Source: a virus. From it: a stretch of 26,250 bases of DNA. How positions within the stretch are numbered: position 1 is the stretch's first letter; every line of letters begins with the position of its first letter. The stretch lies in the IMG/VR virus record IMGVR_UViG_3300020411_001304, positions 1-26,250 of that record. One strand, 5' to 3'. Under the pieces are notes generated by a model. The model did no database searches. It was not told the origin of the DNA and was given only the letters and a program-made list of their open reading frames with translations. The translations under genes were made by a program, and so were the position numbers. Positions 24,059 to 26,250 of the stretch are shown here, in pieces.

Positions 24059-24066
24059 TATTTATT
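24059..24066 (-). promoter_or_regulatory. Late-promoter-like AATAAATA before the phoH gene pair
   Basis: The minus strand reads AATAAATA across the thyX stop codon. It fits the NATAAATA late motif reported for marine T4-like phages and lies 21 nt upstream of the ATG at 24038. Confidence 0.45.
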
Positions 24067-24727
24067 TCCATTGAAGTGCTTCAGCAACTATTGGAAATTG
24101 TTCGGTGAATACCCTACGGCATTCTTCTGCAATCTCCATATGTTCTTTTTGAGTACCATGTGCTGAACGTAAATTTATATAGTGTATCCAAGAACGACAA
24201 GAACCAGTCATATAAATTCTGGTTGGTGTTGCTAATGGAAGAACAAATCTAGCACACTCCTTTGCAACTCCCTCTTGTAAGAGGGTATTGTATAAATCCA
24301 TTGCTGCACTAAAATGTGCTGCTATCTTGAGTTGTAAATCAACTACCTTTTCTGAAGGAATGTCATCGATACTATTCTGCCTATTTTTGAAATCCTGTCT
24401 CCTAAGATCAGGTTCAGGTATTGTAGGACTCAATAAATTAGCATCAGCATATCTTTGAGAAAATTCTTGAAAGGTAAAGGATCTATGTCTTAGTATTTGT
24501 GCAGCAAGTCCTCTAGTTGTTTCTATTTGGACTGTCATATGTGCCTGTTCAAAAACAGACCAATGACCATGATCACAACAATACTTTAGGAGCCCCGCTA
24601 CTTTCGGATTCTCCTGATTCTTCGGGTTCGACACTCTCGCTATGTACCCCATGATCTCCTCCGCTTTCGGTGTCACCGAGATCAATGTCACTTTCTGGGT
24701 CAATGACTGGTCTGACTGGGATTTCAT
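24062..24727 (-). CDS. thyX: Flavin-dependent thymidylate synthase ThyX (221 aa)
   Basis: ThyX makes dTMP from dUMP with FAD, NADPH and methylene-tetrahydrofolate. Seen here are KVTLISVTPKAEEIMGYIAR, CDHGHWSVFEQAHMTVQIE, the family signature RHRSFTFQEFSQRY (80-93 from this start; the usual form is RHRxxSxNExSxRY) and a C-terminal block SWIHYINLRSAHGTQKEHME. I chose ATG 24727, eleven residues before the first strand. ATG codons at 24769 and 24763 in the same frame would add up to 14 residues. No start has a good Shine-Dalgarno. Unusually, the first half of the N-terminal domain overlaps the end of the upstream 120-residue ORF in another frame, for 155 nt from this start. It supplies thymidylate for phage replication. 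Confidence 0.93.
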   Translation of the reverse strand: MKSQSDQSLTQKVTLISVTPKAEEIMGYIARVSNPKNQENPKVAGLLKYCCDHGHWSVFEQAHMTVQIETTRGLAAQILRHRSFTFQEFSQRYADANLLSPTIPEPDLRRQDFKNRQNSIDDIPSEKVVDLQLKIAAHFSAAMDLYNTLLQEGVAKECARFVLPLATPTRIYMTGSCRSWIHYINLRSAHGTQKEHMEIAEECRRVFTEQFPIVAEALQWK

Positions 24728-24935
24728 CTGGGTCGTACCATCCTGATTCAATGACTGTTTCATAACCAAAACCGTTTTTTAGTTCTCTTTGAGTGTTTGT
24801 AATTTTTTCGTTTACTGTACGAAGTTCCTTTTTTAGTCTATGAACTTCTTCTTCAGTATAATTCCAAGGATTCTTATCAGTATCCTTAATTGCACGTTTT
24901 AGATGTTTACGAGCAACCGCAAGAGTGTATTCCAT
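24573..24935 (-). CDS. Hypothetical protein with helical N-half and acidic tail (120 aa)
   Basis: ATG at 24935, 20 nt after a TATAAT extended -10 promoter. Residues 1-60 are charged and helical (LAVARKHLKRAIKDTDKNPW, EEEVHRLKKELRTVNEKITN), probably a coiled coil. Residues about 63-120 are acidic and disordered-looking (WYDPDEIPVRPVIDPESDID, then SVEPEESGESESSG). The acidic tail is read from DNA that also encodes the start of ThyX in the +1 frame. That shared segment is visibly richer in G+C than the rest of the window, as expected if both frames are kept. I recognise no family. The promoter and first 60 codons make it likely to be a real gene; the alternative is that the true product ends earlier through an error in the sequence. 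Confidence 0.65.
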   Translation of the reverse strand: MEYTLAVARKHLKRAIKDTDKNPWNYTEEEVHRLKKELRTVNEKITNTQRELKNGFGYETVIESGWYDPDEIPVRPVIDPESDIDLGDTESGGDHGVHSESVEPEESGESESSGAPKVLL

Positions 24936-25462: not shown

Positions 25463-25489
25463 GCTAACTGTTATAAATATATTTTTTAA

Positions 25490-25575
25490 CTGTGAGGGTA
25501 AGAATCGAACTTACAAGTCCCGCCAGGAACACCAGGGAAACAACCTGGAGCGTTTACCAGTTTCGCCACCTCACA
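25490..25575 (-). tRNA. tRNA with GUU (Asn) anticodon and long variable arm
   Basis: All arms fold. The acceptor is TGTGAGG with CCTCACA, and the D arm is GCG...CGC with CTGGTAAA. The anticodon arm is CCAGG-TTGTTTC-CCTGG, giving anticodon GTT. The variable arm is long (GTTCC-TGGC-GGGAC), and the T arm is GTAAG-TTCGATT-CTTAC. Discriminator is G and CCA is not encoded. The anticodon GUU, G73 and the U1-A72 pair are features of bacterial tRNA-Asn, but the long variable arm and D arm (TGGCGAAACTGGTAAACGC) are those of tRNA-Leu. Base 37 is U, where a purine is normal. It lies ten bases after the stop of a class II aaRS-like gene. It is surely tRNA-like; the charged amino acid is uncertain, Asn being the best guess. 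Confidence 0.85.
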
Positions 25576-25579
25576 AAGG

Positions 25580-25597
25580 GATCCCTAATCAGGGATC
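25580..25597 (-). repeat. Inverted repeat over the stop of the aaRS-like gene
   Basis: GATCCCT and AGGGATC form a 7-bp perfect stem with a 4-nt loop that spans the stop codon, five bases before the tRNA. There is no T run, so it is a weak terminator at best; it may instead be a processing site separating mRNA from tRNA. Confidence 0.5.
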
Positions 25598-26250
25598 GCT
25601 TGCATGAGACGTTGCATTCCTATCCCTCCACCACTTCTGGGGAAGAAATCGAATTCTAGGAACTCATCAAGTTCTGCTTCAACTCTTTCCTTACCGAATA
25701 ATTTGAAGAGTAATTGGGCATATTGTCCATCAGAGATACTATAGAATGTTTCACGCATTTGCTCTTTATCAGTGCTACGTTCTGCACTACCAATAGTCTC
25801 TTTACCACCTATTATAACATCAATTTTCTTACTGGTGTCATCAGCATTTCTTGCCATATTCCAGAATGGTGATGTCCACTCAGGGAACTTAGTAATCATA
25901 CCTCGACCAATAGTCTTTTCATGGTCATGGTCAAGTTCCTTAGTCTTGAATAAATCACCCCATTCTTTGTAAGTTTTACATTGTAATGGTTCTACAGGAA
26001 TTCCTATATATTCGCATAATTCAAATTCCATCTCTCTAAGGTCATCTACACCTCCATGCATCTCAAATTCGAACATGGGGAAAATTACTTCATGTCTACC
26101 TGGAACAGGATTTGGTTCTGCCCTATATGAGGTTGAAACACAGAAAAATCCTGGTGCTTCGGGATTAGACAATAATTCGTATTCTAACCACATTTGACCT
26201 GTTTGGGGTAATGGCCAGGTTTCACCATTATACTGATATGTTGCTACTGT
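25585..26250 (-). CDS. Class II aminoacyl-tRNA synthetase-like protein, AsnRS/AspRS/LysRS type (partial, 221 aa visible)
   Basis: The frame is open to the window edge, so the N-terminus is missing; the internal ATG at 26193 is not the start, because sequence before it (YNGETWPLPQTGQ) reads on in frame. Motif 2 of class IIb synthetases is visible at 42-64: YRAEPNP with Arg43 and Glu45, then RHEVIFPMFEFEM. GGKETIGSAER (148-158) fits the segment before motif 3, and motif 3 is GGGIGMQR (207-214). The protein ends only seven residues after motif 3, shorter than true AsnRS/AspRS. A tRNA with an Asn anticodon lies ten bases downstream. It may charge that tRNA, or be a paralog that makes an amino acid or modifies a substrate, like AsnA. 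Whether an anticodon-binding domain exists cannot be seen. Confidence 0.75.
   Translation of the reverse strand, partial: TVATYQYNGETWPLPQTGQMWLEYELLSNPEAPGFFCVSTSYRAEPNPVPGRHEVIFPMFEFEMHGGVDDLREMEFELCEYIGIPVEPLQCKTYKEWGDLFKTKELDHDHEKTIGRGMITKFPEWTSPFWNMARNADDTSKKIDVIIGGKETIGSAERSTDKEQMRETFYSISDGQYAQLLFKLFGKERVEAELDEFLEFDFFPRSGGGIGMQRLMQAIPD

Follow-up and report, generated by a model that had tools for sequence, protein, structure and literature searches.

De novo pyrimidine synthesis is taught as a single pathway headed by carbamoyl phosphate and aspartate carbamoyltransferase, and in its canonical form UMP is made by CarAB, PyrB, PyrC, PyrD, PyrE and PyrF. Genes for PyrD, PyrE and PyrF are found around the gene studied here, but, in contrast to the canonical pathway, most of its cellular carriers lack CarB and PyrB and have a class II synthetase-like enzyme in their place. 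The closest described relative of this enzyme is AsnRS (class IIb; PDB 8tc8, 1x54), with which it shares the catalytic fold, the motif 2 and motif 3 arginines, the Glu of QxxLE and the Arg of GSxxR, whereas it differs from AsnRS in lacking the N-terminal OB-fold, in having EDP instead of EGG near the amino-group site and in its location in pyr operons. Another one-domain AsnRS paralogue with a metabolic function is archaeal asparagine synthetase A (PDB 3reu, 3rex; Z 23), but it has no tRNA partner and, as far as known, no linkage to pyr genes. EpmA/GenX (PDB 3a5y; Z 22.8) is also a one-domain class IIb paralogue; however, it is of the LysRS type and modifies EF-P, and our enzyme scores far below the EpmA cut-off.

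In phages the gene is accompanied by a tRNA that has the GUU anticodon, G73 and U1-A72 in common with bacterial tRNA-Asn, and the D arm, the long variable arm and the two unpaired bases before the T stem in common with bacterial tRNA-Leu. It differs from both in U37 and in a relaxed base 33, and some members lack the long arm; in contrast to tRNA-Leu, which has A73, all members have G73. In a library of mainly open-access journal papers we found no description of tRNA-linked or carbamoyl-phosphate-free pyrimidine synthesis. The cyanophage 'tRNA ligase' T4-GC194 of P-SSM2 and P-SSM7, which was only named and for which no tRNA or pyrimidine link was given (PMC3037559), is the same gene as that of the enzyme described here. 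It is found in six records of the Prochlorococcus phages P-SSM2, P-SSM5 and P-SSM7, with 75-76% identity and the annotation 'tRNA ligase'.

The sequence analysed was a 26,250-base IMG/VR fragment (IMGVR_UViG_3300020411_001304, positions 1 to 26,250; hereafter the window) of a T4-like marine phage with genes for a gp32-like ssDNA-binding protein, PhoH, ThyX and baseplate proteins. The cassette is encoded by the minus strand and closes the window on the right, where the AsnRS-like ORF (25585..26250, running beyond the contig end) is followed by the tRNA gene (25490..25575). The stop of the ORF at 25585 is separated from the tRNA by nine bases, and its 5' end is cut by the contig end, the first ~46 residues being missing. 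An inverted repeat read from the sequence (GATCCCT-GATT-AGGGATC, 25580..25597, minus strand) covers the stop codon of the enzyme and ends 4 bases before the tRNA. A hairpin that includes this stop codon, a few bases from the start of the tRNA, recurs in loci L001-L086, with the stem letters varying among phages and the fold kept, and it is possibly a processing or stability signal.

ARAGORN detected a single tRNA gene in the window, Asn (GUU), at 25489-25576 on the minus strand, and Rfam RF00005 matched 25490-25575 with 49.7 bits. The acceptor stem is UGUGAGG/CCUCACA with U1-A72 and G73 (at 25490), the D stem has 3 bp and a D loop lettered as in tRNA-Leu, and the variable arm is a 5-bp hairpin (GUUCC UGGC GGGAC). 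The anticodon loop reads UUGUUUC (U33, G34, U35, U36, U37), with the anticodon at 25539-25541 and U37 at 25538, so that this tRNA retains U33 but has a U at position 37; the 3'-CCA is absent from the encoded tRNA. Reading the minus strand confirmed what an earlier note on this DNA had described, namely GUU, U37, G73 and U1-A72 on a body with a D arm of the Leu type and an extended variable arm. In bacteria the anticodon and G73 suffice to move Asn identity to another tRNA body, U1-A72 is a determinant for the GatCAB amidation of Asp-tRNA-Asn, and G73 is an antideterminant that repels LeuRS (PMC9976931); the last of these agrees with the proposal of the same note that the tRNA is rejected by LeuRS via G73.

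A first scan revealed 80 close IMG/VR loci, and a tRNA of this type was located 3' of the gene in every locus with enough sequence, although in two of them (L064 and L068) it was more distant from the gene. With the cloverleaf set by hand and pairing counted over 20 diverse sequences, 99.8% of the pairs in the helices were kept, in comparison to 37-48% in slid controls, and two-sided changes were present at 19 of the 24 pairs. The set was widened by a covariance model made from the cloverleaf sequences and by a second scan with a distant query, to which the proteins of the second-scan loci were 59-79% identical. In total, the tRNA followed the gene on its 3' side in 113 of the 121 non-redundant phage loci with room for it (93%), 110 of these being detected by a script and three (L210, L228 and L242) by the covariance model. 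The script demanded the anticodon GUU but the covariance model did not, and GUU was present in all of the matches of the model beside the gene. Pairing at this level, the two-sided changes and the recurrence in over a hundred loci place the association beyond chance, and with high confidence the tRNA and the AsnRS-like gene constitute a conserved two-gene cassette; the earlier note had named a lack of co-occurrence in relatives as a refutation of its idea, and this refutation failed. Moreover, among 50,697 phage records the tRNA was present in only 6, which are the six cyanophage records with the gene.

The 252-kb genome of P-SSM2 has a single tRNA gene (PMC3037559), which is that of the cassette tRNA. 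GenBank (AY939844.2 / NC_006883.2, L082) puts the P-SSM2 tRNA-Asn PSSM2_199 at 164094-164179, within PSSM2_205, whereas in the sequence it is actually at 162083-162168, directly 3' of PSSM2_198. In P-SSM7 the cassette is neighboured (L083, 4585-4808) by tRNA-Ile(UAU), tRNA-Arg(UCU) and a 'tRNA-Leu(UAA)', the last of which has 73 bases and is shorter than the usual Leu variable arm permits. The enzyme gene occurred without a dedicated tRNA in 8 of the 121 phage loci. Phage-like contigs in which no tRNA adjoins the enzyme gene are L090, L092, L234, L238, L249, L251 and L268, and in L249 the gene is directly followed by PyrE.

Normal decoding needs U33 and a purine at position 37, and the ordinary tRNAs of the same loci have both with almost no exceptions. 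The cassette tRNAs were different in this respect: among the 95 distinct sequences base 37 was U in 86, G in 5 and A in 4, and base 33 was U in 80, C in 11, A in 3 and G in 1. At the same time, G73 was present in 95/95 and U1-A72 in 94/95, and CCA was encoded in 43/95, which implies that the end of the molecule is used as an acceptor. As these letters of the loop and the acceptor return across 95 distinct tRNAs, the possibility that the sequence is an ordinary Leu or Ser tRNA altered by mutation or by a sequencing error in the loop was rejected. Decoding of a four-base codon (AAAC), suggested by an apparently invariant GUUU in the first 77 sequences, was dropped because distant relatives have G37 or A37 and include short forms without a variable arm; these forms, of 74-76 nt only, also dismiss the long arm as an essential element. 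Judged by these letters, the tRNA is one that keeps the determinants for charging with Asn on a body poorly suited to ribosomal reading, and a non-translational role is probable.

The enzyme ORF of the window matched PF00152 (class II D, K and N synthetases) with 39.3 bits (cut-off 25, E=5e-10), in agreement with the earlier assignment of the neighbour to the Asn/Asp/Lys group of class II synthetase-like proteins. It also matched phrog_29758, a family of unknown function, with E=1e-126 over positions 46-267 of 267. The encoded protein is 76% identical to that of P-SSM2, and three huge-phage records have the gene at 46% identity. The ORF indeed ends after motif 3, as had been noted, but the abrupt end is not a truncation: all relatives are single-domain proteins that end just past motif 3 at about 267 residues (~267-300 aa across the family), and since they all stop at the same place, a truncated synthetase gene was excluded as an explanation.

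An AlphaFold model of a close relative, based on a 65-sequence alignment, had a mean pLDDT of 94.4, and its best fold match was AsnRS (Z 25.8 over 244 residues, 22% identity), followed by AspRS, archaeal asparagine synthetase A (Z 23.3) and GenX/EpmA (Z 22.8). The class IIb catalytic core is present with motifs 1-3, and R88, E90, R251 and R260 are invariant; the Arg of motif 2, the Arg of motif 3, the Glu of QMWLE and the Arg of SAER do not vary between phage and cellular forms. In the profile alignment the Glu of QMWLE and the Arg of GSAER fall on the corresponding residues of QLYLE and GGSMR in AsnRS. We take this Glu and Arg of the pocket to be the side-chain-reading residues of class IIb enzymes, and an Asn-like substrate is likely on the basis of these motifs. 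An N-terminal OB-fold anticodon-binding domain was not found, and the model aligns to the catalytic part only (e.g., to residues 119-415 of 1x54). Of the HMMs, the AsnRS equivalog model TIGR00457 gave 19.9 bits against a cut-off of 342.6, the archaeal-type AsnA equivalog at most 33.5 against 389, the AsnA NCBIfam models 15-34 against 309-389, and EpmA a score far below its curated cut-off. We therefore assign the enzyme to none of those families; according to the model it is a complete catalytic domain, and AsnRS is its nearest relative in fold.

The anticodon is out of reach for one catalytic domain alone, which implies that GUU is read either by a host charging enzyme or by a codon; the relaxed decoding features would favour the host charging enzyme. 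This bears on the orthogonal translation pair, in which the phage enzyme would put Asn on the chimeric tRNA and the latter would read AAC/AAU instead of the host tRNA-Asn. The conserved adjacency of the two genes, the AsnRS-type fold and pocket, and the U33 of 80 of the 95 tRNAs are consistent with such a pair. However, GUU is conserved better than the rest of the loop, yet the enzyme has no domain to bind the anticodon, U37 in 86/95 and C33, A33 or G33 in 15/95 are features almost never seen in the ordinary tRNAs of the same loci, and the cellular homologues are located in pyr operons and have no such tRNA; we consider this explanation distinctly unlikely.

A profile search of 84,980 genomes revealed 129 cellular relatives, the best 80 of which were about 51-67% identical, with carriers in Patescibacteria, Bacteroidota, Proteobacteria (Pasteurella atlantica, Bandiella), Myxococcota and others. 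No homologue of the gene was found in the plasmids searched. In the tree the tRNA-linked phage genes cluster within the cellular diversity, with two changes of label (0 of 500 shuffles gave a number as low). When 14 cellular genomes and two huge phages were searched for the cassette tRNA with the covariance model, only lower-scoring matches were obtained; the twelve of these regions that were read proved to be ordinary Leu, Asn, Ser and other tRNAs, except for one region without a called gene. Four 'cellular' contigs (L087, L088, L093 and L113) have the tRNA and resemble binned phage contigs, and the other cellular loci have no such tRNA. More broadly, L087, L088, L090, L092, L093 and L113 are labelled as bacterial or archaeal MAGs and resemble misbinned phage sequence.

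Clustering of the ORFs around the cellular genes uncovered orotidine-5'-phosphate decarboxylase, orotate phosphoribosyltransferase and dihydroorotate dehydrogenase as recurrent neighbours. Of the best 80 of the 129 cellular loci, 28 encoded PyrD, PyrE or PyrF no more than 5 kb from the gene, often in the same operon, and these loci include P. atlantica, Bandiella, Aureispira, Myxococcota, Dependentiae and Patescibacteria. In P. atlantica PyrF lies 5 bases downstream of the gene, and in Bandiella the gene is found with PyrF, PyrE and PyrD, followed by a gene that reads as Prs. The same company was present in more than ten phage loci: a PyrD-like gene, the enzyme, the tRNA and PyrE in L191 and L192; the enzyme, the tRNA, PyrF and PyrE in L215, L216, L217 and L219; PyrE and/or PyrF in L227, L228, L209, L249, L261 and L274; and Prs in L195. 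Pfam/NCBIfam models confirmed PyrF (113.5 bits, PF00215) and PyrD (64.2 bits, PF01180) of the phage loci, while PyrE was called from blast similarity, the PRPP-loop motif and weak HMM matches. Judging by this gene company, the cassette very probably belongs to pyrimidine synthesis. This link was not visible to the earlier note.

Gene company also weighs on the roles that had been offered for the tRNA. Recoding and escape from host tRNA cleavage both fit poorly with the relaxed bases (non-U33 in 15/95, U37 in 86/95), with an enzyme that has no anticodon domain and with pyrimidine genes as neighbours; the third option, a non-translational aminoacyl donor, fared best. Changes in the loop are a known means by which phage tRNAs evade host anticodon nucleases, and the unusual U37 could be seen as such a change, in which case the tRNA would be a defence decoy or spare that is not cut and is charged by the enzyme. 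But only one tRNA species is ever paired with the gene, the company is that of pyrimidine synthesis, and the homologues in cells are chromosomal and have pyr genes nearby, all of which makes a defence function extremely improbable.

The carriers were also searched for the upstream enzymes of the pathway. PyrB (TIGR00670) scored over the cut-off in 0/14 carriers and in 6/50 further carriers, in comparison to 14/14 control genomes; hence, 58 of 64 cellular genomes with the gene lack aspartate carbamoyltransferase, and the gene and PyrB occur together in six. PyrB is absent also from P. atlantica (G001), which is a complete chromosome, and from a genome (G330) in which the contig with the gene is at least 5.9 Mb long. 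Among carriers picked from those without PyrB, CarB (the large subunit of carbamoyl-phosphate synthetase, TIGR01369) was over the cut-off in 3/50 and missing in 47/50, and PyrC (dihydroorotase, TIGR00857) was over the cut-off in 0/50, with no match at all in 32/50. Sub-cut-off PyrC matches were obtained in many larger genomes, mostly Bacteroidota, where they fall just short of the cut-off, and also in 3 of the 14 controls; those of the larger genomes may be real PyrC. PyrF was present in 38 of 48 carriers picked in the same way, which implies that the losses are not due to genome incompleteness alone. In Saprospiraceae, where 183 of 199 genomes have a PyrB match, all four carriers were among the 16 without any (hypergeometric chance about 3e-5, the four carriers being related and not independent).

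The company of PyrD, PyrE and PyrF together with the absence of CarB and PyrB leaves a single gap, which is the step that produces dihydroorotate (or carbamoyl-aspartate in carriers with PyrC). An AsnA-like synthetase of asparagine or of a similar amide that provides an amino acid both for nucleotide synthesis and for the tRNA would agree with the high rank of archaeal AsnA among the structural matches (Z 23.3) and with the weak HMM matches; yet every AsnA score is far below the curated cut-off, and such an activity leaves the absence of PyrB and CarB in the carriers unexplained, so we regard it as very unlikely. We consider it somewhat probable instead that phages carry the cassette as part of a non-canonical route to pyrimidines, with the tRNA as a non-translational aminoacyl partner. 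In this route the AsnRS-derived one-domain adenylating enzyme would supply dihydroorotate or its direct precursor while avoiding carbamoyl phosphate (CarAB) and aspartate carbamoyltransferase (PyrB), and in phages it would be partnered by its own tRNA, the aminoacyl group of which would be reserved for metabolism and not for the ribosome.

Asparagine already has the C4-N3 amide of dihydroorotate, and one CO2-derived carbonyl, activated by ATP, would have to join its alpha-amine and its amide nitrogen for the ring to be closed; dethiobiotin synthetase, which closes a cyclic urea likewise, is a chemical precedent. This chemistry of Asn, CO2 and ATP is suggested only tentatively, as the likeliest of those considered. 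Asn could be supplied free or as Asn-tRNA, and the tRNA could deliver it where hosts make Asn only on tRNA, or could hold a charged pool apart from the ribosome. In its full form, as a tRNA-dependent de novo pathway from Asn (free or tRNA-bound), CO2 and ATP to dihydroorotate that bypasses CarAB, PyrB and PyrC and has a dedicated non-decoding tRNA, the scheme is conceivable but doubtful. In the carriers that retain PyrC the product could be carbamoyl-aspartate, and other chemistries would be beta-aspartyl-AMP with urea or the activation of N-carbamoyl-aspartate.

Several observations run counter to the proposed route and to the tRNA as its partner. No tRNA of its own accompanies the enzyme in cells, in the two huge-phage records that were searched or in 8 of the phage loci, which implies that the tRNA is dispensable for the basic reaction or that host tRNA-Asn serves; the cells and the phage loci indicate that it is an accessory and not a part of the core. 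In addition, PyrB is found alongside the gene in six genomes, Bacteroidota carriers have the PyrC-like matches mentioned above, U33 is kept in 80/95 tRNAs, and P-SSM2 and P-SSM7 have no pyrD and would need to feed the host pathway. The enzyme could instead make a pyrimidine precursor from Asn while the tRNA is a separate matter, charged by host AsnRS or by AspRS and GatCAB, and offsets the drain on Asn or aids translation. The identity elements suit host charging (PMC9976931), and cells and some phages have the enzyme but not the tRNA, but the relaxed decoding features and the absence of the tRNA from phage records without the enzyme speak against this separation, which we consider unlikely.

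If the favoured route, with the tRNA as a metabolic partner, is true, the pyrimidine pathway would have a second entry spread across Patescibacteria, Bacteroidota, Proteobacteria and phages, and a phage tRNA selected for charging and less for decoding would tie tRNA to nucleotide synthesis. It may also explain UMP synthesis in some reduced genomes that look like pyrimidine auxotrophs, and it makes the cyanophage 'tRNA ligase' gene, unexplained for 20 years, a testable enzyme.

Some minor features of the contigs were also recorded. A BMP-family (nucleoside-binding)-like lipoprotein is frequent on cassette phage contigs (L209, L215, L228, L274 and 13 more), and some of them have a 2OG-Fe(II) oxygenase-like protein, both functions being assigned by reading the sequence. 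In the window, an ORF at 24573-24935 (minus strand; phrog_6449/phrog_711) overlaps the ThyX ORF (24062-24769) out of frame by more than 100 bases, and the overlap (24573-24769, minus strand) reaches into the start of the ThyX homology.
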